Assembly (NCBI RefSeq): GCF_028279465.1
Contig: NZ_JANQNS010000014.1
Coordinates: 1 to 64,000 of the forward strand
Length of the DNA stretch: 64,000 nt
DNA from: Parasphingopyxis sp.
GTDB lineage: Bacteria; Pseudomonadota; Alphaproteobacteria; Sphingomonadales; Sphingomonadaceae
Reading direction: 5' to 3'
Below, one piece after another: positions 6,001-63,066 of the stretch. A program made the position numbers and the translations under genes. Positions within the stretch are counted from its first letter, which is position 1. Each line of letters opens with the position of its first letter. The notes under the pieces were generated by a model. The model had not been told where the DNA came from. It made no database searches and saw only the letters and a program-made list of their open reading frames with translations.

Positions 6001-7137
6001 GGCAGTCGCACTGCCGCGGCTTGCAACCGCCTGATGGCCGAGCGCCGTGGTGTTTCCGCGCGTGGATTGCGCATCGCGACCCAAGGCTGTCGCATTGGCG
6101 CCACTCGCATCCGCGAGCGAGCCGATTGCCGTCGTGTTATTCTGCGTGGCCGTGGCCGCCCGTCCTAGGCTGGTCGAGCCATTGCCGAACGCCTGCGCGG
6201 CGGCGCCGACAGCTGTCGCACTGTCCTGCGTCGCGTTTGAGAACCAGCCAAGCGCGGTTGCGCTTGGCCCCGATGCCATGGCCTGTAGACCGAAGGCCGA
6301 AGCGTTTACATTTCCTGTCGCTTCGGCTGCCGTGCCCACGGCAGTCGAACTGCTTCCGCTGGCGATGCTGCGCGCCCCGATGGCGACTCCAGCTGGTCCG
6401 CTCGCGACCGCATCGGCGCCGATGGCCGTCGCGGAGTTTCCGATTGCCTGTGCGCCGAGCGTATCGCCGTCACTGCTATCACCGCCAATCGCGACATTAC
6501 CGGGTTGCGTAGCATCGCTGAAAGCGCCGACCGTGATTGATTCCGTTGCGCTCGAATCCGAGCCTCGGCCAATCGCCACCGCATTAGCAGCGGTTGCGTC
6601 AGCGTCGTGCCCAAGGGCCGTCGCCCCTGTGCCGCTTGCCGTGGCGGTGGCACCAATCGCCGTACTATCGGTCTGGTTCGCAAAGGAAGAACGACCGACT
6701 GCCGTAGAATCCGTGCCGGTCGCCGTTGCGAAGAAGCCGACTGCTACGGCCGCCGGGCCTTGAGCATCGCTGTCGACGCCGATCGCTGTCGATTCTGAAG
6801 ACGTACCCGTGGACGATCGCGTACCGCATTCAAGCGTATCGGTGCCGTTCCCATCGACACATCCTGCTCCCGCACCCTGCGGCTGATCGATGGGGCCGCT
6901 CAGCTCGATCGAGCTGCTCAGCGCGGGGGCTATCGTGCGCGTCGCAACATGATCGACCATTTCATCGCATTCTTCCCGGGCATCGGCCTCGAGGGGCAAA
7001 TCGCCGGCCTGCGCATTGGCATCGCATTCGAGAACAGTCTCCGCTCGCGCGGCGTCTATCGGGACCAGAGCAGTCGCGCTGAAGGTTGCGGCTATGGCCA
7101 ACGAGACCACGCCGGGAACGAGACGGAAAATTCGCAT
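1..7137 (-). CDS. Trimeric autotransporter adhesin (YadA/Hia-like), C-terminus outside window
   Basis: Reading leftwards from ATG at 7137 the frame stays open for 2379 codons to the window edge, so the stalk end and membrane anchor are not seen. The protein opens with a signal peptide (MRIFRLVPGVVSLAIAATFS..., cleavage likely after DAARA). A short Cys-containing region follows, then hundreds of YadA-type head repeats of about 14 residues (pattern AxAxGxxSTAIGxxA), which form a left-handed beta-roll in known adhesins. The repeat blocks are separated by a recurring linker ending GEVWNVTVNDSGMLSA, then GAPIDQPQGAGAAC and LECG. It should be exported by Sec and displayed on the outer surface as a trimer for attachment or autoaggregation. 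A G-rich stretch (GGGGGG) just upstream could serve as ribosome binding site. Large plus-strand ORFs here are mirror artefacts of the repeats. Family assignment is secure; ligand unknown. Confidence 0.9.
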   Translation of the reverse strand, partial: MRIFRLVPGVVSLAIAATFSATALVPIDAARAETVLECDANAQAGDLPLEADAREECDEMVDHVATRTIAPALSSSIELSGPIDQPQGAGAGCVDGNGTDTLECGTRSSTGTSSESTAIGVDSDAQGPAAVAVGFFATATGTDSTAVGRSSFANQTDSTAIGATATASGTGATALGHDADATAANAVAIGRGSDSSATESITVGAFSDATQPGNVAIGGDSSDGDTLGAQAIGNSATAIGADAVASGPAGVAIGARSIASGSSSTAVGTAAEATGNVNASAFGLQAMASGPSATALGWFSNATQDSATAVGAAAQAFGNGSTSLGRAATATQNNTTAIGSLADASGANATALGRDAQSTRGNTTALGHQAVASRGSATAAGVGSRATGERSAAFGRSSDASGNNALAMGADADAFGNSSVAIGGDGNDGNMSGARATAGHSVAVGADAQASDIFAVAVGAGADADGPTAIAIGRNASAQHSNSVALGFGATSTGANNFAIGNANATYTLAGLGALVPGGEVWNVTVNDSGMLSASAPPAPLSASTSSLQLAGAPIDQPQGAGAACVNGSGGTTTLECGNGSSTGSATLATAVGTSASANATGASAFGRFATATSTNTTAIGGSALANSTGAVALGSSAQALGSDSTSVGRGANTNQTNATAIGSLSTASGVNATSLGRDAFANEIGATALGAIASARGTNAIAVGHDADATQAGSIAIGGDSTDAGVAGAQATGVRSIAVGADSEASDEGAVALGADASATEQSSTALGQGAQATAGNSVALGNNALANRASATAIGSGSRATGNRSSALGRSAAATGDFSTAIGPDSTASNIHAVAIGNQSTASRAGAVAIGRGTDAFGTSSVAIGNQASATHNFSMAIGFQAASNGVNNIAIGNADATYTLAGLGALVPGGEVWNVTVNDSGMLSAAAPPAPFSAPAPGAGGLALAGAPVDQPQGAGAACEESPGLECGTLSNTGDSRATAIGKNTNATGTNGSTALGTFAEATGNRGTALGDSAIASGRGSTAVGNSARAGGTSSTSLGNFAQATGVNSTAVGNFTNAFDFSTAVGTLAQATNSRSIAIGASANATGQESISLGAFSDATQTGAIAIGSDGDDGDADGAQARGVRSTALGADSVASDINTTAIGANSQATGNTGMAIGAFSSATGGGSAAIGFSAEARGFLSQAIGYGAESEGDGSIAIGAAATTQNLSAETNGNIAIGSSSLFVDGVGSSETTANGGDSIAIGTAVLSAGAGSIAIGGDGEDAGEIGARATADNAVAIGVDARSTGPQSAALGRSASALGTDSLALGSGTEARARSSVAIGVDGNDADTLGAQATASHAVAIGPDATATQIHAVAIGTRSEASGTTSVAMGRDSTASGSGSIAVGRLSIASAPSSLALGPLAQATHNNSMAIGFGAASNGVNNIAIGNLGATYTLAGLGALVPGGEVWNVTVNDSGMLSASAPPAGASAPAPLNGSLALAGAPIDQPQGAGAACEESPGLECGSGSSSGANSSNTAIGIGATATGAFDGTAVGRGAIAGEESTAIGEDAQATALQATAIGEGSRATASEATALGSAANASGVDSTSIGAFSTASAGQSVAVGQGVTADFTDSIAIGQSADVGGIAAIALGADANADALSAISIGGQSGATAEATVAIGGDGDDADTLGAQASSAGNVAIGADTVASGTFSTGLGAGTDATGDFSTAVGVGAQATADNAVALGVITTATGIGSTALGNSASAAGSSSTAVGLAANAAGIVAVSIGQGSDATQPGTIAIGGDSSDADIDGAQATATSSIAIGGDAVASGSEAIAIGVGASAADRGTIALGGGATVGAFDFGTALGADTSVTGDGGTAVGQNAIAAVNSTSIGQDANALAGRSTALGDAALASRTSAVALGARATALGDASVAVGGNSALGASFGARADGAQSTAVGASAFADQTNATALGADSDATGTAATALGADSTASGASAVSVGSNALANQSQAIAIGETSAAVSANAIALGGLTDSSGAGAIAIGGDGADADTIVGAAASGTEAVAIGADASASQANTTVVGGQASALAQGGTAVGHNADATGEAGAAFGRNTTAAANAVAVGALASGGGTGATAVGGSANASAADATAVGNSSLAQSAGSVAMGNDSRASGIDSIAIGGDDGGTGAFANGNSTTAVGGESEAAGTGATTFGWQSVASAERATALGHLATAQGVRSVAVGENADAQSNNAIALGNETVASEDSAIAIGGDGGDGDTDGAQATAEGAVALGADTEASGVFTAAVGRAATASGGNSTAIGNGAQATNVRTMAVGRGAVASGINSLALGSNSEATGNSSVAIGVDGGDAGTEGAQATAGQSVAIGSDAAATEIHAVAIGTRTVAS
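2618..2875 (-). repeat. Adhesin linker module, copy 4
   Basis: Fourth occurrence, in reading order, of the conserved segment that separates head-repeat blocks. It encodes NNIAIGN..ATYTLAG, LGALVPGGEVWNVTVNDSG, then GAPIDQPQGAGAAC and ESPGLECG. It is close to the copy at 4224-4475, sharing the short CEESPGLEC Cys pair. Confidence 0.8.
4224..4475 (-). repeat. Adhesin linker module, copy 3
   Basis: Third occurrence of the same linker (GGEVWNVTVNDSGMLSA, then GAPVDQPQGAGAAC and ESPGLECG). The DNA around 4362-4398 is nearly identical to 2750-2788 and 5542-5578, which points to duplication of a unit consisting of a head-repeat block plus a linker. Confidence 0.8.
5405..5660 (-). repeat. Adhesin linker module, copy 2
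   Basis: Second occurrence of the linker. It carries the longer Cys pair (CVNGSGGTTTLEC) instead of the short CEESPGLEC form, and is preceded by a NNFAIGNANATYTLAG version of the head-to-linker junction. Confidence 0.8.
6823..6899 (-). repeat. Adhesin linker module, N-terminal half copy
   Basis: First occurrence, near the mature N-terminus. It has only the second half of the module (GPIDQPQGAGAGC, then DTLECG) without the GEVWNVTVNDSG part. Every copy holds two cysteines about 8-12 residues apart, unusual in this adhesin family. Confidence 0.7.
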
Positions 7138-12052: not shown

Positions 12053-12821
12053 CTCGGCCGCCCGGAAACTGGACGTGATCGATGCCCGGCCGGCTTACAC
12101 GCAGGCCGATGCCGATGCGCTGAACACGCGCTTCGAGGGTGTGGACGCGCAGACCATGCTGCGTGCGCTATTCGCCGAAGACGAGCTGGGCGAGATCGCC
12201 GTCGTATCCTCGTTCGGCACGGAAAGCGCGGTACTGTTGCATCTCGTCGCCAAAGCAGATCCGGCGATTCCGGTCATCTTCGTCGACACGCTGAAGATGT
12301 TTCCCGAAACGCTCGACTATCGGGACACGTTGATCGAAGCGTTCGGCATCAAGAATGCGTCGATCGTGACACCCGCTCCCGAAACGCTCACCGAGAAGGA
12401 CGAAAATGGCCTGCGCTGGTCTTTCGATCCCGATGGCTGTTGCGCGATCCGCAAAGTTGAGCCCCTGGCCCGCGCGAAGCACGGCCTCGATGCCTGGATT
12501 TCGGGGCGCAAGGCGTTCCAGTCGGTCACGCGCGAAAATATCGCGCGCTTCGAAGTCGAGGACGGCCGGCTCAAGCTCAATCCGCTCGGCGACTGGGTAA
12601 AGGCCGATCTCGACGCCTATTTCGAGGAACACAACCTTCCGCGTCACCCGCTCGAAGCCGAAGGCTATCTCTCGGTCGGCTGCGCGCCGTGCACGAGCAA
12701 GGTGCTCCCCGGCGAAGATCCGCGCGCAGGCCGCTGGCGTGGCTGGGACAAGACGGAATGCGGTATCCACACGCCAATCGACGGCGCGGACGACGACGAG
12801 GCGAACCAGCCGGTTTTCTAG
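12015..12821 (+). CDS. cysH: Adenylyl-sulfate (APS) reductase, 4Fe-4S type
   Basis: Thioredoxin-dependent reduction of adenylyl sulfate to sulfite and AMP. The 268 residues carry the PP-loop-like start SSFGTESAVLLHLVA and VDTLKMFPETLDYRD. They also carry the two cysteine pairs that bind the [4Fe-4S] cluster of APS-type enzymes (DGCCAIRKVEPL and VGCAPCTSK), and the catalytic cysteine motif KTECGIH. The cluster cysteines argue for APS rather than PAPS as substrate. ATG 12015 is chosen over 11994 because CAGGAGG lies six bases upstream. Last gene of the operon; it converges on the GST gene. Confidence 0.92.
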   Translation: MTDTPSGASDMASSAARKLDVIDARPAYTQADADALNTRFEGVDAQTMLRALFAEDELGEIAVVSSFGTESAVLLHLVAKADPAIPVIFVDTLKMFPETLDYRDTLIEAFGIKNASIVTPAPETLTEKDENGLRWSFDPDGCCAIRKVEPLARAKHGLDAWISGRKAFQSVTRENIARFEVEDGRLKLNPLGDWVKADLDAYFEEHNLPRHPLEAEGYLSVGCAPCTSKVLPGEDPRAGRWRGWDKTECGIHTPIDGADDDEANQPVF

Positions 12822-21224: not shown

Positions 21225-21260
21225 GAGTTGGTCGTAGACGTACCGCGATGCTATTCCACA

Positions 21261-22109
21261 ATGATGAGCGCTGTTGCCTTACAGTCGAGACGTTACCTGA
21301 CCCGGACCGTTTCCGCCGCGATTTTGCTCGTTGTTTCTGTTGCCTGCTCTCCTGAAACAGCCGCCACGCAACTGGTCGAAACACCGCAGCGGATCACTTC
21401 TGTTGAAGGGCATTTGAGCAGACTACAAGAAATTGACGCTGAGAGCATAACCAGCAGCGACTGCGAATCTCAGTTTTCGCGCGCCGAGCAGCTCAATGCT
21501 AGTGACCTATTCTATGCGTCAGCCGTATGTTTCGCGGTCGAAAACCCATTACGGGGCAACTTTCTGCTGGCTGCTGGCTGCTGGCTGCTGGCTGCTGGCT
21601 GCTGGCTGCTGGCTGCTGGCTGCTGGCTGCTGGCTGCTGGCCAAGTCAGAGCCACGGCGGATTTGTCAATCCTAGAACCAATGACCGAGTCTGATGAAGA
21701 TGCCGCAGCTTCGATTTATGGCCTAATATTCTTTCACTTAGGCGGCCCTGGCGAAGAAGTGATTTATAGGAATGAAAGCCAGTTCGAAGAATTGACGCAA
21801 ATGATCGAGGATTGGCGACCGCAGTTCGACAGCGCATATGATCCGGGTTGGGAGGTTGCCGATTATCCAGATCAGGAATCGTATCGAAATGTGCTTGCCG
21901 AGTTTAAGGCTCATCGGCTCGTTCAACTCAATAATGTGAGGACCGTTTTTTCCGACGATCAGTATTATGCGTTGCATAGGCGGTTTGCAGAGCTTCAAGC
22001 CCGTGTTGGAATGTTCACCGAAGGATCGCCTGAATACGAACAATCCGAAGACCTTCAGCGCCGAATGAACGAGCGCGCGGAAGAACTTGGAGTTGATTGG
22101 GTCCAATAG
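21261..22109 (+). CDS. Putative lipoprotein with heptanucleotide repeat tract
   Basis: 282 residues from ATG 21261 (or the adjacent ATG 21264); the TTG at 21228 is less likely. The N-terminal hydrophobic segment ends VVSVACS, a possible lipoprotein signal with Cys at about residue 30. At residues 102-127 the protein reads LLAAGCW three times plus LLAAG, encoded by 11 perfect CTGCTGG units (21564-21640). The remaining C-terminal part (about 155 residues) is acidic and not recognised. Because the unit is 7 bases, gain or loss of a single copy shifts the frame. Both other frames stop within about 20 codons after the tract, so the gene is in its full-length state here. Confidence 0.65.
   Translation: MMSAVALQSRRYLTRTVSAAILLVVSVACSPETAATQLVETPQRITSVEGHLSRLQEIDAESITSSDCESQFSRAEQLNASDLFYASAVCFAVENPLRGNFLLAAGCWLLAAGCWLLAAGCWLLAAGQVRATADLSILEPMTESDEDAAASIYGLIFFHLGGPGEEVIYRNESQFEELTQMIEDWRPQFDSAYDPGWEVADYPDQESYRNVLAEFKAHRLVQLNNVRTVFSDDQYYALHRRFAELQARVGMFTEGSPEYEQSEDLQRRMNERAEELGVDWVQ
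21564..21640 (+). repeat. Eleven-copy CTGCTGG tandem repeat inside an ORF
   Basis: Perfect tandem repeat, 77 bases, unit CTGCTGG x 11. Three units make 21 bases and encode LLAAGCW. The unit length is not divisible by three, so slipped-strand copy changes would switch the reading frame. Confidence 0.95.
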
Positions 22110-46318: not shown

Positions 46319-46394
<76 letters not shown>

Positions 46395-46509: not shown

Positions 46510-47643
46510 GTGACCAAACACACGATCCTCGGTGGGAAAGTTCATCTCTATCAGCGCGAGCGCAGCAGCCGTTGGCAATGCTCGACCTACCTCAACGGCA
46601 AAAATCATCGTGCCAGTACGAAAGAGGACAGCTTGGCTCGCGCCAAGGACTTTGCGGAAGATTGGTATTTAGAGTTACGCGGCAAGCAACATCGCGGGGA
46701 ACTGACCAACGAAAAGACCTTCCGCGACGCGGCCAAAAAGTTCGTCGCCGAATCGGCCGCCATTCTGGCGGAAGAACGAAGCCATAAATGGCTTAGGGAT
46801 CACGAAAGTCGAATACGGCTACACCTCAATCCGTATTTCGGGAAAGAACCGTTATCAGAGGTGACGTCCGGCAAGGTACAGGACTATCGAGCGCACCGCT
46901 TGCAGTCTGATCGCCCACCGTCGCGGAGCACCTTACACTCGGAAATCGTCACGTTGCGGCAAGTTATGAAAACCGCGCAGCGGCACGGTTGGATTAAACA
47001 CCTGCCTGATTTTTCCGCCCCTTATAAAACCAATGGAAAAATCACCCATCGCGGTTGGTTTTCACATGACGAGTACAAGCAGCTCTACGAAGCCACGCGC
47101 AAATATGCGCGGGAGCAGCGAGGCAAGCAACATCAATGGAATGCCGAGCAACTGCACGACAAAGTGCTGTTCTTAGCTAACACCGGTATTCGCCCTGATG
47201 AGGCCAACGGCCTGCAATACCGTGATGTCGAGATCGTCGTAGATGACGCCACCGGCGAGACGATCCTCGAAATAGAAGTGCGCGGCAAGCGCGGCGTGGG
47301 ATATTGTAAAAGCACCACCGGCGCTGTTCGTCCCTTTGAACGGATGGTTGAACGCAACCAACCGGAACCGACCGACCGTCTCTTTCCGGTAGATCACAAG
47401 AAGAAGTTCAACCAAATTCTCGATGAGTTAGGATTGAAGATTGACCGGCTCGGCAACCGCCGCACGCTCTACTCGCTACGCCACAGCTACATATCTTTCC
47501 GGTTGCTCGAAGGCGCAGACATCTATCAGATTGCCAAGAACTGCCGCACGAGTGTCGAGATGATCGAGAAGCACTATGCAGTGCACCTCAAGAATAGTCT
47601 GGATGCAGCGGCGATAAACGTGCGCCGAAGCCGAAATGAATAA
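46510..47643 (+). CDS. Tyrosine recombinase / integrase of the island
   Basis: 377 residues from GTG 46510. An N-terminal SAM-like/Arm region (ERSSRWQCSTYLNGKNHRAS) is followed by a core-binding domain (about 70-170). The catalytic domain has the first Arg in ANTGIRPDEANGL, the lysine around VRGKRGVGYCK, the second box LYSLRHSYISFRL with Tyr in place of the usual His, and the nucleophile Tyr in MIEKHYAVH. It stands directly beside tRNA-Lys and presumably inserts and excises the island there. Confidence 0.9.
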   Translation: MTKHTILGGKVHLYQRERSSRWQCSTYLNGKNHRASTKEDSLARAKDFAEDWYLELRGKQHRGELTNEKTFRDAAKKFVAESAAILAEERSHKWLRDHESRIRLHLNPYFGKEPLSEVTSGKVQDYRAHRLQSDRPPSRSTLHSEIVTLRQVMKTAQRHGWIKHLPDFSAPYKTNGKITHRGWFSHDEYKQLYEATRKYAREQRGKQHQWNAEQLHDKVLFLANTGIRPDEANGLQYRDVEIVVDDATGETILEIEVRGKRGVGYCKSTTGAVRPFERMVERNQPEPTDRLFPVDHKKKFNQILDELGLKIDRLGNRRTLYSLRHSYISFRLLEGADIYQIAKNCRTSVEMIEKHYAVHLKNSLDAAAINVRRSRNE

Positions 47644-49225: not shown

Positions 49226-49812
49226 TCCACAATCGCCATGAGTTGTGATGGGAACGGTTGTTGGAAACTTGCTGCATCCTCGCCGCTCAGCCAACGGTCA
49301 TAGTCATCAGGTTCGAGAACTACCGGCATCGCTTTGGGATGAATTGGCTTCACCAGCGGATTCGGCTCGCAGGTCAAAAACGCGAACACGTTTCCTACGA
49401 CTTTGTCGGGACGCCAGATCCCAGCAAAAGCCGATATTTCTGCTTCGGTAACAGTGAACCACACCTCCTCGCGCCCGGCTTTCGGTTTCGGCTCGGCAAA
49501 TTCTGTGAAAGGAACCAAACACCGATTTTCTGGGCTATTGATGATCCCCCGAAACAATGGGCTCTTGAGATTGCGCACATTAGTGGTGTTCATCTTCTTA
49601 GTGGTGCCGGGTCGCTTGCCCTTAGTCACCCACGGAAAACCCCAGTGCATCGTTTCCGCGACATTGCCCTCATCGGTTGCGCGAACCACCACCGCCTGTC
49701 TTTTGGGATAAACCTCTTCCGGTGGGTCATCATATCTGAAGTGACTTACGTACTCGCGCCAGCTTTCGACGGTTGCAAGAGCTTCCGGCAGGTTGCGAAA
49801 GTGATTGCACAT
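49222..49812 (-). CDS. SRAP-family (HMCES/YedK) abasic-site protein
   Basis: 196 residues, a compact member of the SOS-response-associated peptidase family, which forms a covalent link to abasic sites in single-stranded DNA through Cys2. The protein begins MCNHF, so Cys2 becomes the N-terminus. Further family motifs are NTTNVRNLKSPLFRG, CLVPFTEFAEP (with the catalytic Glu) and IHPKAMPVVLEPDDYDRWL (with the active-site His). Its ATG overlaps the stop of the VirD4-like gene (TGATG), so it is expressed with DNA-transfer functions. Confidence 0.88.
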   Translation of the reverse strand: MCNHFRNLPEALATVESWREYVSHFRYDDPPEEVYPKRQAVVVRATDEGNVAETMHWGFPWVTKGKRPGTTKKMNTTNVRNLKSPLFRGIINSPENRCLVPFTEFAEPKPKAGREEVWFTVTEAEISAFAGIWRPDKVVGNVFAFLTCEPNPLVKPIHPKAMPVVLEPDDYDRWLSGEDAASFQQPFPSQLMAIVD

Positions 49813-51494
49813 CAGGAGCTATCAACATCCTCCCAACACGCGTCCGGGTCTAACGTATCGACGACGTCGCCGGTTAAGTGTGCCCGACGTTTCGATACGT
49901 CCCGCTGTACGTCCGCCGGCCGTTTGGCGCTTGGTTCACGACGGCGCACGGTGTCATAAAAGTATTGGTTTTGCTCAGCCGTTGGACGAGCCGGATGTAC
50001 GTCAGCCGTGGCAAACTGGAGCGCAAGACGATCATCGGCTCGATAGGCAAATGCCTGTCGCTTTTGCAACAAACGAATGGCAACCGCTGCCTCATGTTTC
50101 AGCTCTTCGAGCGAATAGACACCCCCCGGCAAGTCTTCGAGGATCGGCACCAGCGCTTCATGCCACGACCGCGATTGAATCCGTGACGTGCCTGAATTGC
50201 TTGAATTGCTATCGCCGCTCGATTCCGTTTCGAACATCACCGGAATCGCATTTTCAATATCAAGGGCACTGGTGCCCGTCGCCACGCCGGACATCGAACC
50301 ACTGGTTTCAGCTTCGAATTTACCGAACGCCTCACCCTCCGCTTCCAGCCATTCGCGACTGTAGCCAACGACGGTTGGCTTAATGAGCACCTCTTTGGGG
50401 CGCTCCAAATCGAATGTCTTGCCAAACAGCAATTCACCAAGCTCTCCGGTCGTTTCGCGATCTTCTTGGAGGAAAACAATTTTCGATTGGGCTCCGTTCA
50501 TCACACCGTTGCGGATCGGGTGATTGGGACTATCACCGAGATGAGCCAATCGCTGGTGAGATAGAATATAATGCAAACCGTATTTGCGAGTTTGATCGAG
50601 GCCGTGAATCACGGTCTCATTCAGATACTCGCCGCATTCATCGATGTAGCAATAGAATGGCGCCTCCCCGGCGCGATCAACATCTCGCTGTTTTGCTGCC
50701 CGGAATAAGTCGGCCGTAATCAATGCCCCGACTGTCTGTGCCACCTGAGGCGGAACACGACCTTGATCGTTCAAATTCACCAAGATCACATCGCCACGAT
50801 CCATGCATAGTTTGAAATCGATCACGTCTTCAGTTTGACCCAACATTTCCGCCACGCCGGGACTGCCTGTCAGAGCTCGCATGCGATTGGTGACAGCGCT
50901 GAAGATCGTGACGAACTCATTGGTCTTCAAAAAATCGAGTTCGTTCCACTTATCGATCAGCCCAGCGTCACCAGTCGCTTCGACTAGCCGCTGCCGCGTC
51001 TCGCGATGTTGGAGCGAGGTTAACAGCGGCGCTTCCATTAAGCTGAGTTTGTGAAAGGCGAGCGTCGTGAACACCATCTCAAGCAGGTTTGCGAGCGTCT
51101 TGTGACCAGTGCTTTCTTCGTCTCCCCAAACCTTCTGACAGCCCTCAATCATCGCTCCCACTCGGGCGGGGATGTATGGATCATCCAACGACAACGGATT
51201 GAAACCGATGGACCAATGACCGTCGGCCGGGTTTATTAGGTGGATTCGGCGCGTCCGGTGCCATTCGCCCGCCGATAGCCAGTCACACATATGCCGGTAC
51301 ACTTCGCCGTGCGGATCAATCAAACATACCCCAGCGCCGTTCTCGATGTCCTGGCGCATCATATGCTCGATCAGGTAGCTCTTGCCCTGACCCGACAATC
51401 CAATCAGATGCAGGTGGGTGTCTCGGGCCTTTTTGGACAGCGACACCGGGCCGTCGGCCCCTTGACCGAGCGAAACGCTGAAACCATCTCCCAC
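49812..51494 (-). CDS. VirD4/TraD-like coupling ATPase (first)
   Basis: 560 residues from GTG 51494. Walker A HLIGLSGQGKSYLIEHM (about residue 33), LIDPHGEVYRHM, Walker B FYCYIDECGEYL (about residue 285) and HQRLAHLGD place it in the TraD/VirD4-like HerA-FtsK ATPases that pump or couple DNA to a transfer channel. No N-terminal membrane helices are present, unlike classical coupling proteins. The C-terminal 120 residues are hydrophilic. Middle gene of a coiled coil / ATPase / SRAP operon. Relaxase and T4SS genes are not visible nearby. Confidence 0.82.
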   Translation of the reverse strand: MGDGFSVSLGQGADGPVSLSKKARDTHLHLIGLSGQGKSYLIEHMMRQDIENGAGVCLIDPHGEVYRHMCDWLSAGEWHRTRRIHLINPADGHWSIGFNPLSLDDPYIPARVGAMIEGCQKVWGDEESTGHKTLANLLEMVFTTLAFHKLSLMEAPLLTSLQHRETRQRLVEATGDAGLIDKWNELDFLKTNEFVTIFSAVTNRMRALTGSPGVAEMLGQTEDVIDFKLCMDRGDVILVNLNDQGRVPPQVAQTVGALITADLFRAAKQRDVDRAGEAPFYCYIDECGEYLNETVIHGLDQTRKYGLHYILSHQRLAHLGDSPNHPIRNGVMNGAQSKIVFLQEDRETTGELGELLFGKTFDLERPKEVLIKPTVVGYSREWLEAEGEAFGKFEAETSGSMSGVATGTSALDIENAIPVMFETESSGDSNSSNSGTSRIQSRSWHEALVPILEDLPGGVYSLEELKHEAAVAIRLLQKRQAFAYRADDRLALQFATADVHPARPTAEQNQYFYDTVRRREPSAKRPADVQRDVSKRRAHLTGDVVDTLDPDACWEDVDSS

Positions 51495-55120: not shown

Positions 55121-56284
55121 ATGTCTCTCCCACAACAGTCGGTTTCCCACATAGGGTTAGCCTATCATCGCTACGGCGATCGACCGTTCGGCATCAAACA
55201 AGCCGACCGACTGCATCACTGCTACCTCATCGGCCAGACCGGCACGGGGAAATCCACGCTACTCGCTAACCTTGCCCGGCAAGACGCTAACCATGGGCGC
55301 GGTCTGATCTTCGTCGATCCGCACGGCGATACGGCCGAGCGATTGTCTCGGTCGTTGTCGGTCGAGCACGTCTATTGGGACGTGGCCGACGAACACAGCC
55401 CCTACGGGTACAATCCGCTCGCCCGCGTCCCACGACACTTACGACCGCTGGTAGCGTCAGGCTTCATTGATGCGCTGAAGAAGCAGTGGGCCAATAGCTG
55501 GGGTGCTCGCATGGAGCATATGCTGCGCTACGCGGTCTTGGCCCTACTTGATTTACCGCACGCCGATATGCGCGACATTATCCGACTCTATCTCGAGAAG
55601 GATTTTCGGCGCGAGGTGATAGCCCGTGTTCGGGATCCCCAAGTCCGCGCGTTTTGGACGGTGGAAATTGCAAAGCTGAATTACGTGAGGACAATCGACG
55701 GGCTGCCCCCGATTACGAACAAGCTGGGTGCATTCTTGGCGAACCCAGTTGTTCGTAATGCGGTGTGCCAGCCCTCCCACCCCCTCCGGTTCCGCCGGGC
55801 TATGGATGAGGGGCAGATAATCATTATCAATCTGGCGAAGGGACGCACCGGAGCCGACATCGCCAACGTCCTCGGTGGGCTATTGATAAGCAATGTGATG
55901 AACGCTGCGTTTTCGCGGAGCGGACAGGCCGAAACGGAACGAAGGCCATTCTTTCTATATGCCGACGAATTCCACAATTTCACAACGGCTGTCTTTGCCG
56001 ACATGCTGGCAGAGGCCCGCAAATATGCGCTTGGCGCTATTCTGTGCCAGCAACACACGGCGCAGACCGACAAGCCGATCCTAGACGCCATATTGGGGAA
56101 TGTCGGAACGCTCCTGGCCTTGCGGCTAGGGGCGACTGACGCGCCGAAGATCGCTCGGCAACTAGGCGATCTTGATTCCAGCTTTCTCGTATCGCTGCCG
56201 AACTATCACGGCTTTGCGCAGCTTATGATTGACGGTCGAAAGTCCGCTCCATTCTCGTTCCAAACTCGGCCGCCGTTTCCATGA
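55121..56284 (+). CDS. VirD4/TraD-like ATPase (second)
   Basis: 387 residues, starting close to the Walker A motif (YLIGQTGTGKSTLLANLARQ, about residue 37). Also visible are FVDPHGDTAERL, Walker B FFLYADEFHNF (about residue 285), and LCQQHTAQTDKPILDAILGN, like the sensor part of HerA/VirD4 enzymes. Shorter than the first such gene (49812) and not closely similar outside the motifs. No membrane segment. Located next to the palindrome. Probably a DNA-translocating or coupling ATPase for mobilisation. Confidence 0.82.
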   Translation: MSLPQQSVSHIGLAYHRYGDRPFGIKQADRLHHCYLIGQTGTGKSTLLANLARQDANHGRGLIFVDPHGDTAERLSRSLSVEHVYWDVADEHSPYGYNPLARVPRHLRPLVASGFIDALKKQWANSWGARMEHMLRYAVLALLDLPHADMRDIIRLYLEKDFRREVIARVRDPQVRAFWTVEIAKLNYVRTIDGLPPITNKLGAFLANPVVRNAVCQPSHPLRFRRAMDEGQIIIINLAKGRTGADIANVLGGLLISNVMNAAFSRSGQAETERRPFFLYADEFHNFTTAVFADMLAEARKYALGAILCQQHTAQTDKPILDAILGNVGTLLALRLGATDAPKIARQLGDLDSSFLVSLPNYHGFAQLMIDGRKSAPFSFQTRPPFP

Positions 56285-56370: not shown

Positions 56371-56586
56371 ATGAAACACAAACGTAGATCGCTTCAAAAA
56401 TCAGCTCGGGCCCCCTTTCCCAAAGAGACACTTGAAGCACTGGAACAGCTCGGTCTCGTGCTGCGAACGATCCATTTAGAAATGAAACGAGCGGGCTACG
56501 CCGTGATCGACGGCAAGCCCGTTAAGCTCACCGATAAAAATGAAGAATCGAAAAAAGACAGCGGAGCAAGTGCTTCGCGAAATTAG
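56371..56586 (+). CDS. Small basic protein upstream of serine recombinase
   Basis: 71 residues: a Lys/Arg-rich start (MKHKRRSLQKSARAPFP), then an amphipathic helix (ETLEALEQLGLVLRTIHLEM) and a charged tail. It overlaps the recombinase start by 47 bases in another frame, so the two are coupled. It could be a recombination directionality factor or helper; that is a guess from position. Confidence 0.5.
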   Translation: MKHKRRSLQKSARAPFPKETLEALEQLGLVLRTIHLEMKRAGYAVIDGKPVKLTDKNEESKKDSGASASRN

Positions 56587-58282
56587 GCGTGGCAAGTATC
56601 AGGATTGCTACCTCAAGTACCAACGGAAGAGTTCTGACGAGGCAGACAGCCAAGTAAATTCCATTGAATATCAGGATGAAATCAATGGGCAGTTCATGGC
56701 GAAAGAGAACCTACCCATTGCCGACGTAACGCTTGAAGGCTTTTGCGAGAATGGCATTATCAACGAGCGCCATTCCGGCTTCAAGGAGGACGGCGAGATT
56801 TCCTTCTCCAAAGACGGAAAGGTGCAATACCACATCGACCGCCCAAAATTTTTGCAGGCAGCGCAGTTCCTTTCTGCTGGCTACTTCAAGGGTATCGTTT
56901 TTCTGTGTTGGGATCGCGCCAGTCGGAATGACGGTGACGATACTGTCCTCAAAAAACTAAAACGTAATCGCGTCGATATTCGGTTTGCGCTCGCCACATA
57001 TGACAACAGCAGCGCAGGCGATCTGCACATGGATATTGACGGCATGTACGCTCGCTCACACTCCCGTATTACGAGCGAGAAAGTCAAAATTGCGATCCAC
57101 CGCAACCGGAAAAATGGCCTTTGGACACATCGCGCTCCAGTTGGATATCTCAACCCTGGAACAATGGAGCACAAGCCAATCGACCCCGAACGAGGGCCGA
57201 TCATCAAGGAACTATTCGAGCTGTACGCCACCGGCACCTACAGCCTGTCTGATCTCGCGCGGATCGCCAATGACAAGGGGCTGACAATACCGCCGCTCCG
57301 TACTCCGCGCACAAAAGAACAGATGCTGGCGCAAGAGGAGATCAGGCTACCGAAAAAGACCAAGCCGATCAGAACCAACTATGTCAGTCACATTCTTCGC
57401 AATCCGTTTTACACGGGTCGCGTACTCGATCCGGAACGAAACTGGATCATGAGCAACTGCCACGATCCGCTTGTCGATGATGAGACTTTCGCCCGTGTGC
57501 AAGAACTGCTCGGGAAACGTACCGTCAGCATTCACTACGAGAAACTGATAAACCACCCGCTGCGCGGCAAAGTGCGCTGCACCTCATGCAATCGAGTGTA
57601 CACGCCATATACCAAAAAGGGCATTTTGTATTTCTATTCGCGCTGCGTTCCTGGCTGCACCAATCCGGTCAAAAGCTACAGCCTGACACAGATTACCGAC
57701 GAAATTCGCAAGCGGATCGAAGGGCTGCAATTCTCGGACGAAGAATTGTCCGCAATCGAAGCGCAAATTGGAACCGAAATCGCATTGTTGGAAAAAAGGC
57801 GTGACGGTGAAATTCGAAGCTTCGAGGGCCGCAAAAAACAACTCCGCGAAGAACTGGCGTTCCTGCGCTCCAACAAACTCAGTCTGATAAAATCCGGGGC
57901 CTACTCAGCTGAGGAAATTGTCGAGCAGCAGAAAGAGCTGGAACGGAAGTATGATGACTTATTGGAAAAGGAGACCATTTCCGAACGAGCCATGCGGGAT
58001 ATGATGAAAGACGTAACCACCCTTTCAGAACTCCTAAAAGGCGTTGTGGGCTATTACGATTTTGCTGATCCGTACAAAAAAGAGGAGATCATTCAGATTA
58101 TCTTTTCAGAACTCTATCTCTCGGAAAATGGGCTTGAATATAAGGTTCAAAAGGGATTTGAACCGTTTGCAGATCGAATATCTGCCATGGGCTCCCCCAT
58201 GTCTTGGCTTTCAGAACATCTCCATGGCCGAGAGCAGATGCGATTGAGTATCGCTGCGCTTCGATCTCTGATCGAGGCGTAG
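56540..58282 (+). CDS. Large serine recombinase
   Basis: 580 residues. The resolvase domain is N-terminal: CYLKYQRKSSDEADSQVNSI holds the YxRxS nucleophile serine and SIEYQ follows (residues 24-45). Further motifs are VFLCWDRASRN and the E-helix region SHSRITSEKVK. The recombinase domain has GLWTHRAPVGYL, and the zinc ribbon GKVRCTSCNRVY plus CVPGCTNP (about 345-375). A long coiled coil (about 405-480) and a C-terminal tail follow. The last 27 residues (from MSWLSEH, codon at 58199) have a same-length homologue across the Shedu gene at 59603-59686, so the gene end appears to have been exchanged by an insertion. Confidence 0.92.
   Translation: MKNRKKTAEQVLREIRRGKYQDCYLKYQRKSSDEADSQVNSIEYQDEINGQFMAKENLPIADVTLEGFCENGIINERHSGFKEDGEISFSKDGKVQYHIDRPKFLQAAQFLSAGYFKGIVFLCWDRASRNDGDDTVLKKLKRNRVDIRFALATYDNSSAGDLHMDIDGMYARSHSRITSEKVKIAIHRNRKNGLWTHRAPVGYLNPGTMEHKPIDPERGPIIKELFELYATGTYSLSDLARIANDKGLTIPPLRTPRTKEQMLAQEEIRLPKKTKPIRTNYVSHILRNPFYTGRVLDPERNWIMSNCHDPLVDDETFARVQELLGKRTVSIHYEKLINHPLRGKVRCTSCNRVYTPYTKKGILYFYSRCVPGCTNPVKSYSLTQITDEIRKRIEGLQFSDEELSAIEAQIGTEIALLEKRRDGEIRSFEGRKKQLREELAFLRSNKLSLIKSGAYSAEEIVEQQKELERKYDDLLEKETISERAMRDMMKDVTTLSELLKGVVGYYDFADPYKKEEIIQIIFSELYLSENGLEYKVQKGFEPFADRISAMGSPMSWLSEHLHGREQMRLSIAALRSLIEA
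58195..58219 (+). repeat. Core direct repeat, left copy (attachment-site candidate)
   Basis: 25 bases in the 3' end of the serine recombinase gene, from CCCCATGTCT to CTTTCAGAACAT. It matches 59599-59623 at 23 of 25 positions (differences at 58205 and 58207), in the same orientation and reading frame. Similarity falls off sharply right after the core. Confidence 0.75.
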
Positions 58283-58292
58283 CGGAAAGGCC

Positions 58293-59519
58293 TTACTTCT
58301 CGCCTTCAGCAAGCCGTCCTTCGAGATTTTTCAACCGTTCAAGGAACTCGTCGTAAAGAATGAGATCGATATTTTTGAGAGCGTCGCCAAGCAGTCGAAA
58401 ATCATCTCTCATCTTCTCGTCGGTCAGTTGCTCGCTTCGACCAGCAATTATGAACCCTCGCGGGCGAACAACCTTGATCTCAAGATTGTGTCGTTTGCGC
58501 ATCTCGTTGCAGAACGCGTCCGCATTTTGTTGCAAGCTGTTAATATAATTTTCCGTCTGCGAGATCGCTTTCGCAATCTCCGGATCCCAGAAATAGTTGT
58601 CACGGCTCTTATCATAACGGAGCAGTTGGGTCGTAGGCTTCTTTATCTCGAATATATCAAGGTAGCCGAACGTGTTTAGCAGCAGGAAATCTGGATATTT
58701 CCCACCTAACGACACGCTTAGCTTTTCAATCGACTTCACATAATTGGTATTGAACAGCAGAATGTATGTGCGGAGAAATTTCTGCCAATCATTCTCCGAA
58801 AGGTTGGCGCGTCCGATCTTGTTCTCAAACTCTTTGAGCACCTTTGAGAGATAAACCCGTTCCGTTCGGCTCTTGGTCTTCCCAGCCATATCGAGCAGCG
58901 CAATCGTGCGAACGCCGGTAGATTCCTTTTTGACAAACTTGGGATAGAACTCGGCCAGCGCTTCGACATCGGATTTCGACAGTGATTTTAGCACTTTCGG
59001 GTCGCGAAGAATCTCGGCCAATTGATCGCCCTGGTATTCCGGAACCAGCTCTGTCGTTGTTTTGAGCGACCGGAATGTGTTGGGGAATTGCGATTTGAGG
59101 AAGGCATTGGTGTTGTCGCCGATCTCATCGTTCCGCTCCTTCCGTATACGTCGAATCGTCTTTTGCAGAGTGTCGAACTGGTTGAAATTGATCGTGACTT
59201 TAGTTTTCGTTTTGAGCTTCTGGACACCGCTTTTTTTGATCTTATCAAAATGCAGTTCCAGCTTCTTTCCATATTTCTCGTGCAGGGCCTTTAGAACGGC
59301 ATATCCAGTGGTGAAGCCGTAGCCGTCTCGGTAAAAACCGCTCGGCAATTTGTCGAACCCATGAAAGTAGATCACCGAAGCCAATTCATGTTGCTCAGTC
59401 CGACCCGTCGGTTCGTCAGGGACGTGCAGCCGATAAATTATCTTTCTTTGATCAGCGTAGATTTGCTGGACGACCTGACCGGTCTTCTCGCTCGTTACTA
59501 TTTCTGGTCTTTTTGCCAT
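58293..59519 (-). CDS. sduA: Shedu anti-phage nuclease SduA (DUF4263)
   Basis: 408 residues. The N-terminal half (about 1-210) is a family-specific region. The C-terminal half is the SduA DUF4263 nuclease of PD-(D/E)xK type: SENDWQKFLRTYILLFNTNY, GGKYPDFLLLNTFGYLDIFE followed by IKKP (catalytic D, E and K), SQTENYINSL and FIIAGRSEQL with LYDEFLERLKNL at the end. Shedu is a single-gene phage defence system in which the protein assembles into a DNA-cleaving oligomer. Convergent with the recombinase, 10 bases apart. No Shine-Dalgarno stands before the ATG; a possible promoter (TTGGCA, 16 bases, TACCAT, minus strand 59554-59527) would give a nearly leaderless mRNA. Confidence 0.88.
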   Translation of the reverse strand: MAKRPEIVTSEKTGQVVQQIYADQRKIIYRLHVPDEPTGRTEQHELASVIYFHGFDKLPSGFYRDGYGFTTGYAVLKALHEKYGKKLELHFDKIKKSGVQKLKTKTKVTINFNQFDTLQKTIRRIRKERNDEIGDNTNAFLKSQFPNTFRSLKTTTELVPEYQGDQLAEILRDPKVLKSLSKSDVEALAEFYPKFVKKESTGVRTIALLDMAGKTKSRTERVYLSKVLKEFENKIGRANLSENDWQKFLRTYILLFNTNYVKSIEKLSVSLGGKYPDFLLLNTFGYLDIFEIKKPTTQLLRYDKSRDNYFWDPEIAKAISQTENYINSLQQNADAFCNEMRKRHNLEIKVVRPRGFIIAGRSEQLTDEKMRDDFRLLGDALKNIDLILYDEFLERLKNLEGRLAEGEK

Positions 59520-59598
59520 GACTGAAATGGTACACGAACAGACAGTATTGCCAAAGCCACCAATCCCGTTTCCGCACGTGAACGGGGCCGGCCAAATT

Positions 59599-59623
59599 CC
59601 CCATGTCTCGACTTTCAGAACAT
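59599..59623 (+). repeat. Core direct repeat, right copy (attachment-site candidate)
   Basis: Second copy of the 25-base core, 1404 bp from the first, lying in the first codons of the recombinase-tail remnant. The two copies bracket the recombinase 3' end plus the Shedu gene. Confidence 0.75.
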
Positions 59624-59686
59624 ATAGATCGCCGAGAATACATAAGATCGAATATCGAAACGCTTCAAAATCTGATTGCCCCCTAA
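59603..59686 (+). pseudogene. Displaced C-terminal end of a serine recombinase
   Basis: 28 codons including stop: MSRLSEHIDRREYIRSNIET then LQNLIAP. Compared with the last 27 residues of the intact recombinase (MSWLSEHLHGREQMRLSIAA then LRSLIEA), 13 of 27 positions are identical and both end at the same point with a stop. The frame is closed by TGA at about 59580, upstream of the fragment, so it is not a gene of its own. Its TAA overlaps the TAG of the convergent coiled-coil gene. Confidence 0.8.
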
Positions 59687-60951
59687 GATCGACTGGCCTT
59701 CACAATATCCGTCGCGCTTTTGAGCACTGTTTCGAGAACGTGTTCGTTGACCGTGTTTTCGTCACTGCCCTCCAATTCACCGCGCTGGCCAAACAGCTTT
59801 TCGCTCAGCCTCTTCTTAAGTTCCGTTTGTTCTTCCGGCGACAATGACGCAATGAATGGGTCAATAGCTTTGACCTCCAGTGCCAACCACCTCGTTCGCT
59901 GCTCGCTAATACGATGCAGATTTGATTGCTTGGACGCATAGACGGCACCGAACAGCAAAACAGCAGCTACCGAAAGCGCTTTGAGCGCCTGTCCCCAGTA
60001 ACTCAAATTCGAGCTATCGGTGGAATCGGCCACCGTCAGATAGGCGAAGATTGTCCAACCAGCAGTAGCAACGATGAAGAGGATTGAAGCCCAGCGCCAA
60101 AAGTTTGCTTGAACTTTTTCGTCCTTCGCATTCTTCATGTAGCCCGCCGAAACACTATCGCTCGCTACAATTTCGTGCAGCTCCAAAATTTCCTTGTGCT
60201 TTTGCTTGGCTTCATCGAGCAACCGTTGCGATTCGGTCGAAAACGATTTTTGCTTGCTCGCAAGCGCGGTCGATTGTGTTTCAATGAGTTCTCTGACCTG
60301 GGTTCGCGCGTCTTCTTCGTGCGCTTTTCGCCACTCCTCGTAGGCGCTATCCCGTTCGGTCTCACTCTCTTGGAACTGTCTCGAAAAATCAGAAACAATC
60401 TGATCGTTCTCTTCTCGCTTGTCGCGGATTTGCTGCGTCAATGCTTCAAGGTCGGATTCAAAAGACGTTTTCGCCTTGGCGAGTTTGCCTAGATCGCCTG
60501 CAAGCTCCTCTTTGCGCTCAGCTAGACTCTCAATAAACGAATCGACCGAACGTTCGACCGATTTTGTGAGCTTCTTGACGTCAGGTGGCAAAACCAAACC
60601 TTCAAGCTGCGCGAGTGTCGGCAGGTGGGACGCCATATGATTGTTCGCATTGGTTAGGTGGGCACCGTTCCCGTTGCTGGCGTACGATTCGAGTTCGTTC
60701 CAAACATTTTGGTGTCGAATTCCGTTGTTGATTCCGTCGAGGAAGCTAAACGGAAAGGTGTCGGGATCAATCTGAGAAATCGCGGCTTCGATCTTCTCCA
60801 AGATTTTCAAGAATCTCAGCTTCTCGCGCTCGGTTTCTGCCGTCACATCTTTGTGTTTTGCTTCCAGAAGCTCTTTTGCTTCGCGCAGGGTTTCATGGAT
60901 TTGGTGATTTGTGAGTTGTTCTTGCCAGCGGTTCATGGTTTCATTTTCCAT
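59683..60951 (-). CDS. Coiled-coil protein with two membrane helices, unknown function
   Basis: 422 residues. A long charged coiled coil (about 125-265, e.g. SDLEALTQQIRDKREENDQI, RVRELIETQ-like stretches) is followed by two close membrane helices (FWRWASILFIVATAGWTIFA, about 285-304, and ALSVAAVLLFGAVYASK, about 325-340). A cytoplasmic tail with SPEEQTELKKRLSEKLF ends the protein. The N-terminal 120 residues look globular. I do not recognise it as a named defence family. Its stop codon overlaps the recombinase-tail remnant, so it belongs to the accessory cargo of the same hotspot and is a candidate defence effector. Confidence 0.75.
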   Translation of the reverse strand: MENETMNRWQEQLTNHQIHETLREAKELLEAKHKDVTAETEREKLRFLKILEKIEAAISQIDPDTFPFSFLDGINNGIRHQNVWNELESYASNGNGAHLTNANNHMASHLPTLAQLEGLVLPPDVKKLTKSVERSVDSFIESLAERKEELAGDLGKLAKAKTSFESDLEALTQQIRDKREENDQIVSDFSRQFQESETERDSAYEEWRKAHEEDARTQVRELIETQSTALASKQKSFSTESQRLLDEAKQKHKEILELHEIVASDSVSAGYMKNAKDEKVQANFWRWASILFIVATAGWTIFAYLTVADSTDSSNLSYWGQALKALSVAAVLLFGAVYASKQSNLHRISEQRTRWLALEVKAIDPFIASLSPEEQTELKKRLSEKLFGQRGELEGSDENTVNEHVLETVLKSATDIVKASRS

Positions 60952-62139: not shown

Positions 62140-63066
62140 TTACACTAATGATCGGCGTTTCCCGTCGCCCGTAACCCAAATATCTGCCAGCGGCCCATTC
62201 GCCTCAAGCTCGGCTGTTGTCGTGTACCAGAACACGCCCTTAGGCGCGTCCGATACGACCCGGTCGCAAACCTCCCGCATTTTTGCGACCCGACCGCCCG
62301 CGCCGTTGACCACAAACAGCACCCGGAAATATCTGAAGCCATACAGTTCAGAGTGTAGCTTGCGCTTAAAGGCGTCGGCATAGCAGCGGTGCTTTTGAGC
62401 TATAGACGAGGCCAGACGATTAGCCTTGATGAAGTCCTCGCTACTGTTATCCCATTCAAGAAAGCACAGGCTTTGTTGCCGCCGACCGGATACGGTGCGG
62501 CCAATAACAAAGGTGTAGTCAGGGTCGGTCGCCCGATCGATCACGCGGCCTTGCTGCTTAACCCTTGTTGGCAACCGATACGGCTTGAGTTCAGCCGGCC
62601 AATCGCGCGACGCCAGCAATTCGTCTTGGTGCGTTAGATCGAGTTCGGCGCGCTCACTAATCGCCCGCTCAAAGTGGAGTACCGTATCGACGACGCCGAT
62701 CTGGTGCACCAAGCGCTCAGCACTCTTGAGGTTATTAGCGGTGCGCCACCCCTTCCCTTTGGGAAACTCTGCACCGTCATGCTCAGCCAACCACTTCGCC
62801 CCGCGCTGACCCAGCGCATGGACGGTATGTCGTTTCTTGGCGTAGCCGAAGGCCGCCCGCTGTATAGCGGGCCGGTCAAGATAGTCGTGTGCCATAAGTT
62901 GGCGCAGCCGTTTATTGATCTTGTCACGGCTCTTAGAACCGCACAGCAATTGTGCCTGGTCGGTAGTGATGAAGCGGAAGCGGTGCACGGCTCTGATCCA
63001 GAGTTTATCACGCTCGGTTAGCCGGATGTTACCCGCGACTATCGGCTTTTGCAGTGCCCGGCTCAT
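62140..63066 (-). CDS. Replication-relaxation family protein
   Basis: 308 residues. The N-terminal winged-helix part (LTERDKLWIRAVHRFRFITT, DQAQLLCGSKSRDKINKRLR, QLMAHDYLDRP, about 15-80) is followed by the family's nuclease-like core (ERLVHQIGVVDTVLHFER, DPDYTFVIG, QSLCFLEWDNSSEDF). This matches the Replic_Relax family found on plasmids and integrative elements, usually close to TraD/VirD4-like genes, and thought to start replication or transfer. The D/E...D pattern (PDYTF, LEWD) hints at a nickase-like site. The 63067-63234 stretch upstream has no gene. Confidence 0.82.
   Translation of the reverse strand: MSRALQKPIVAGNIRLTERDKLWIRAVHRFRFITTDQAQLLCGSKSRDKINKRLRQLMAHDYLDRPAIQRAAFGYAKKRHTVHALGQRGAKWLAEHDGAEFPKGKGWRTANNLKSAERLVHQIGVVDTVLHFERAISERAELDLTHQDELLASRDWPAELKPYRLPTRVKQQGRVIDRATDPDYTFVIGRTVSGRRQQSLCFLEWDNSSEDFIKANRLASSIAQKHRCYADAFKRKLHSELYGFRYFRVLFVVNGAGGRVAKMREVCDRVVSDAPKGVFWYTTTAELEANGPLADIWVTGDGKRRSLV

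Follow-up and report, generated by a model that had tools for sequence, protein, structure and literature searches.

This study examined the first 64,000 nucleotides of contig NZ_JANQNS010000014.1 of Parasphingopyxis sp. (the window), in which a Shedu defence gene lies between two related copies (T1 and T2) of the C-terminal tail of a large serine recombinase. From comparison of the sequences, the repeat is best read as an attachment half-site overlapping the recombinase 3' end, and we lean modestly toward the view that a 1,404-bp Shedu cassette was captured at the phage-type attachment site (attP) of an island that itself sits at a tRNA-Lys gene. Comparison with the relatives of the recombinase supports a site-specific event: tRNA sequence stands at their 3' ends and the native tail lies upstream of them, and attP therefore appears to overlap the recombinase 3' end.

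The repeat and the two tails

The features of the locus are as follows (window coordinates).

56540..58282, + strand: large serine recombinase, 580 amino acids (aa), ending in native-type tail T1; Pfam Recombinase and Resolvase
58195..58219, + strand: core copy 1, attP-like junction between recombinase body and T1
58199..58282, + strand: T1, native-type tail (P' arm), 27 codons and stop
58195..59598, no strand: putative Shedu cassette, core to core, 1,404 bp
58293..59519, - strand: Shedu SduA gene, 408 aa; Pfam SduA_C E 8e-30, PADLOC SduA E 7e-31
59599..59623, + strand: core copy 2, attL-like junction between non-recombinase DNA and T2
59603..59686, + strand: T2, second native-type tail of the same length and frame as T1, without the Trp found in the other 12 tails
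59683..60951, - strand: 422-aa open reading frame (ORF) that terminates within the final bases of T2; without a Pfam match and weakly similar to ZorA (E 9e-5)

The two cores are identical at 23 of 25 positions, and the similarity extends beyond them to 76% identity over 78 bp (58195-58272 versus 59599-59676). This pair is the top direct repeat of the 6-kb region at both lengths (59/78 and 23/25), above the maxima of 42/78 and 21/25 reached in 30 dinucleotide shuffles of that region. With up to three mismatches allowed, the 25-bp core occurs twice in the window, against a mean of 0.00 over 100 shuffles, and a 21-bp part of it recovers only the two window copies from the whole genome. Each tail comprises 27 codons and a stop, with 13 of 27 residues identical. 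The tail repeat beyond Shedu that the first-pass annotation had reported is therefore real; its 25-bp core match stood as well, whereas its statement that the copies diverge after the core did not, since the similarity continues. The Shedu and serine recombinase identities that it had proposed also hold by Pfam and PADLOC. Shedu is encoded by a single gene with the C-terminal SduA domain, and protection against phage is the predicted function; its relatives on plasmids (17 records) all fall below 60% identity.

Taken alone, the mismatches between T1 and T2 by codon position (9/6/10) do not point clearly to coding, and both copies are open in + strand frame 2 as well. The DNA to the left of T2 does not read as a recombinase end, being the region upstream of Shedu. 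When the recombinase body is read directly into T2, the frame continues to an end of ...GSPMSRLSEH...LIAP-stop, as expected of the uninterrupted gene ending MSRLSEH...LIAP that had been predicted earlier; as a baseline for this empty-site reading, 181 of 20,000 random 84-mers of the contig hold 27 open codons followed by a stop. Judged by sequence, the recombinase/T1 junction thus has the form of an unbroken attP, and the junction of the Shedu-upstream DNA with T2 has the form of attL. No third tail was found in contig positions 1-142000, and a whole-genome search with a tail model returned T1, T2 and then noise (next match E 1.1); the model included T1 and T2, and the strong E-values for both arise by construction.

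Apparent tail exchange in related recombinases

The window recombinase carries both expected domains (PF00239, E 2e-8; PF07508, E 2e-13) and is the only match to itself in its genome. Ser31 and Cys347, 350, 369 and 373 are invariant across seven aligned rows. The predicted structure is poor (mean predicted local distance difference test score, pLDDT, 66.1; predicted template modelling score, pTM, 0.32; residues 544-580 below pLDDT 50), and the tail is therefore not informed by it.

Searches of 60 related genomes, 385 genomes of the class and 397 of the family returned distant recombinases only, the best other match having E 6e-34 and 30% identity; four other genomes among the 397 match at E <= 1e-25, at 27-30% identity. 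Six exact peptide patterns, run against 84,980 species genomes in a scan sensitive to close relatives only, picked up one relative (51%). Searches around that relative gave matches in 2 of 379 genomes of its phylum (E <= 1e-40), 4 of 60 of the genus set, 5 of 147 of the family set (E <= 1e-80) and, by profile, 16 of 307 of the order set (E <= 1e-100), these sets overlapping one another. The hosts, whose genomes measure about 0.5-1.1 Mb, are probably Patescibacteria, to judge by that size. The first six relatives (L051, L060, L065-L068) share 40-54% identity with the window recombinase. A 26-row tree (of the window recombinase, 20 relatives and five distant recombinases, with the truncated L089 left out) clusters the window recombinase with 17 of the 20 relatives at support 98/98, and its exact placement inside that group is weak (80/63). 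On plasmids, tblastn found no close relative (28 records, all below 60% identity and none covering 80% of the query), and two scans of viral contigs gave 1 and 54 stretches fitting the pattern, none of which was confirmed.

In all of the first six relatives the recombinase reading frame stops within a tRNA-Glu gene on the opposite strand, and 12 of 15 further loci likewise terminate in a tRNA gene (Glu 9, Trp 1, Leu 1, Asn 1), so that the recombinase 3' end falls inside an antisense tRNA gene in 18 of 21 loci; that of the window does not. The match to the window protein stops at residue 553 in 11 of the 21 and at residues 546-551 in six more, the remaining four stopping at 249, 529, 565 and 576. 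Codon 553 (proline) occupies 58196-58198, and the similarity between T1 and T2 begins at 58195. The tail is therefore the exchanged part, in keeping with the earlier suggestion: the homology ends at or near its start and tRNA sequence replaces it.

A native tail of the form WLSEL..QR..I.LSI..L stands 1.0-12.6 kb upstream of the recombinase, on the same strand, in 11 of 20 loci (L089 left out). These displaced tails are still open and are placed at the presumed far end of the element. The search, confined to the recombinase strand, used an ad hoc score with a threshold of 130; the tails that were accepted scored 222-367, one at 157 (G1382) was not accepted, and some contigs end before the far end of the element is visible (L068, L092 about 3.5 kb). 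GTGA directly precedes the displaced tail in 11 of 11 cases and is found at the tRNA end in 10 of 11. Two of the 11 tails continue, in frame, a remnant of a recombinase 3' end (the joint ORFs are 59 and 126 residues long), which indicates that the tail is the native C-terminus.

In nine of the 11 elements the minus strand encodes the first listed ORF (at least 80 aa) inside the tail. Shedu and the 422-aa ORF have this orientation too, and the 422-aa ORF is placed like these tail-adjoining genes; with its weak ZorA match beside T2, it is a possible second cargo gene. A PADLOC scan of ten of the 55 listed cargo and core proteins found type III restriction or methylation proteins in three elements and GajB-like, RecD-like, HerA and mad2 matches in or beside others, mostly to broad ATPase or helicase families; one of the ten matched nothing. 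Ten other proteins of the 55 had no Pfam match. Defence cargo occurs at the tail end of relatives' elements, and the scanned subset does not establish it as a rule.

Two further observations concern individual relatives. L094 (about 2478-2657) and L099 (about 12308-12688) carry 3' remnants with a native tail upstream of a full recombinase, which suggest lost tandem copies. The recombinase tail of L090 (G1475 contig 3) is not tRNA-derived, and the same genome has a second, very similar recombinase at tRNA-Glu.

Apparent constraint on the tail sequence

The tail frame (frame 0) is open in all 13 tails, that is, in those of the 11 relatives and in T1 and T2, whereas the other two frames hold stops in 12 and 7 of the 13. 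The DNA motif TGGCTTTCNGAA is exact in 12 tails, the exception being T2; T1 carries it together with WLSEH, and T2 is without the Trp codon. After the motif, the mean BLOSUM62 score is 1.36 in frame 0 and -0.91 and -0.34 in the others. Since the tail rows are related to each other, these frame and motif counts are not independent. The motif and the conservation of the frame suggest that the stretch is apparently constrained both as DNA and as protein; as DNA, it is perhaps a binding arm. That all 13 copies keep this frame open, most of them parted from their recombinase, suggests that the tail matters when the element is excised.

With a profile built from the 11 relatives' tails alone, the T2 frame ranks first among 3,877 six-frame segments of contig positions 1-142000 (E 0.0085). 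Scored against this profile as peptides on their own, T1 reaches 17.2 bits and T2 14.7 bits, compared with 10.1 bits for the best of 4,000 shuffles. The T2 peptide gave nothing at E <= 10 against plasmids and phages. Pattern scans of viral sequences for tails returned 3, 1 and 17 stretches, none of the 21 being judged a tail, and no recombinase was found in the 18 of these in which one was sought.

Proposed cassette capture and alternative explanations

The route by which the element reached the chromosome bears on how the site is read, and the features of the surrounding region are these.

46319..46394, + strand: tRNA-Lys (ctt), where the whole island was apparently inserted; the sole tRNA found in the window
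46510..47643, + strand: putative tyrosine-type integrase of the tRNA-Lys island, named from its position and a reading of its sequence
49812-51494 and 55121-56284: type IV coupling-protein domain matches (Pfam)
62140-63066: Replication-relaxation match (Pfam)

The 3' part of the tRNA-Lys gene is repeated at contig positions 67504 and 71231, beyond the window. The GC content of the locus stretch from tRNA-Lys is 0.526, compared with 0.629 to its left and 0.623 further right, and the putative integrase has a Phage_int_SAM_5 match of 21.2 bits, below the cut-off of 22.3. The low GC content, tRNA-Lys copies, integrase and coupling-protein ORFs therefore place the recombinase inside an apparent tRNA-Lys island. 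By its gene content, the host is likely an alphaproteobacterium.

In the reading that we favour, the recombinase attP would overlap the 3' end of its own gene, the DNA of the last ~27 codons serving both as P' arm and as native C-terminal tail. Integration of the relatives into tRNA genes would part the tail from the recombinase, stranding it at the element's far end, and the integrated recombinase would gain a tRNA-encoded tail, as backed by the comparison of loci rather than by an observed reaction. The window element may have entered the chromosome by another route, through the tRNA-Lys island with its putative tyrosine integrase, and attP would therefore have stayed free. A small circle with Shedu, one core and one native-type tail could then have recombined into the free attP, giving the recombinase T1 with Shedu beside it and shifting the former tail, T2, 1,404 bp downstream. 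An element closing through tRNA-Lys would hold one recombinase and one tail (T2), and Shedu with T1 would therefore be the insert at attP. Of the first-pass proposal of site-specific insertion into the recombinase 3' end, the kind of event is retained, given the half-site behaviour and the relatives, and the label attB is not: attP of the recombinase itself is the better name for the site, and P' arm for the tail, because the relatives have tRNA sequence there and the native tail upstream.

Several points weigh against this reading. It rests on a single example, and neither an empty site nor a circle was seen; the exchange and stacking of cargo suggested in the first-pass annotation go beyond this one example. 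Large serine recombinases normally join attP with attB, whereas the right half is of P' type at both window sites. The GTGA of the relatives is absent at both window sites, so that the crossover there is extrapolated. Three of the 21 recombinase ends do not fall inside a tRNA gene: L082, in which the frame stops before the tail and tRNA-Glu lies 47 bp beyond the stop; L089, which is truncated; and L090, which has another tail. The search on the recombinase strand did not find a displaced tail in nine of 20 loci. T1 fits the relatives' profile slightly better than T2, the reverse of what is expected if T2 is original, and within the full recombinase frame T1 is at noise level (whole-frame E 7.1; domain 9.3 bits); its position directly after residue 553 is independent support for its membership of the tail family.

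The closest competitor, a serious one that we consider rather improbable, is that a complete related element with a T1-Shedu left end integrated at attP and later shed its recombinase together with its right part, with Shedu remaining between a pair of P' arms. The recombinase-tail junctions of two relatives resemble remains of earlier tandem copies, the minus-strand orientation of the first ORF inside the tail is shared with Shedu and the 422-aa ORF, and the relatives' cargo includes type III restriction-modification proteins, all of which suit such an origin. The recombinase 3' end expected to the left of T2 is not seen, however, so that a deletion ending at the core would be required, and the genome has neither a second close recombinase nor a third tail. 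The first-pass annotation had called for a search for multiple tandem tails; each of the 20 relatives' loci searched had at most one tail, and no homologue with the window arrangement was found among them. We prefer cassette capture to a tandem element with a lost recombinase, while the remnants in two relatives keep the latter a real possibility.

A local duplication of the recombinase 3' end, with Shedu entering between the copies by ordinary recombination and without a site-specific event, would account for tails alike in length, frame and start, and no mobility was observed. We give it little credence, because the duplicated part starts where the relatives turn to tRNA sequence and because T1 and T2 alike match the tail family built from other genomes. 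That T1 and T2 are instead the 3' ends of an unrelated host gene targeted by the element is very unlikely: elements often restore the 3' end of their target with a diverged copy, but in other genomes 11 loci have the tail upstream of a recombinase, two of them with the tail fused to a recombinase remnant, and T2 DNA has one other match in 249 family genomes, of 24 bp, which lies in the frame of an unrelated ATPase-like protein and is read as chance.

Relation to known systems

Phage integrase genes whose 3' ends overlap attP are known, and the overlap alone is therefore not claimed as new. Integrons load gene units at a fixed site by a recombinase, using a tyrosine integrase and attC sites; the recombinase beside the present cassette is a serine recombinase, and no search was aimed at attC sites. 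Staphylococcal cassette chromosome (SCC) elements likewise load gene units at a fixed site, with rlmH as the target of their Ccr recombinases. Shedu systems share the SduA_C domain and the single gene, placed here inside a recombinase attachment site. The tRNA-site relatives have in common with the window the recombinase body, the tail family, the apparent attP at the 3' end and, in four of the first six, the small upstream ORF described below; the window differs in its native-type rather than tRNA tail, its 3.3-Mb genome and the Shedu gene between two tails.

PMC8371274 describes archaeal suicidal integrases of the Sulfolobus spindle-shaped virus (SSV) type, in which attP lies inside the integrase gene and integration alters the gene. 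Those enzymes are tyrosine recombinases split in two, whereas the window enzyme has serine recombinase domains and would exchange just its last ~27 codons, which places it outside that class. In the integration-dependent immunity of mycobacteriophage BPs (PMC4557955), attP lies inside a reading frame and integration strips a C-terminal tail; there the gene is the repressor and the tail carries a degradation tag. A literature search, with most subscription journals outside its scope, returned no paper that describes serine recombinases with a conserved tail swap, or Shedu placed between two such tails.

A tentative proposal, possible rather than likely in our judgement, is that the tail exists only while attP is unbroken, so that integration would rewrite the enzyme, perhaps inactivating it or altering the direction in which it works; a free attP would then be a dock for defence cassettes without a recombinase, each bringing a tail and leaving the recombinase whole. 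The point of wider interest is that the C-terminus of a bacterial serine recombinase would be exchanged by its own integration. Cassette capture would also offer a concrete route for adding single defence genes, without a recombinase of their own, to a mobile element.

Other features of the window and contig

56371..56586, + strand: 71-aa ORF overlapping the recombinase start; no Pfam match

A match to this ORF lies upstream of the recombinase in four of the first six relatives (41-55% over 31-43 aa), and it might be a directionality factor. The tRNA-Lys 3' copies at 67504 and 71231 suggest that a second, shorter island of about 3.7 kb may sit stacked behind the first. Elsewhere, positions 34-6763 hold long overlapping frames with repetitive Ala/Pro/Ser-rich or Arg-rich translations, and positions 21228-22109 hold an ORF with a tandemly repeated LLAAGCW peptide.

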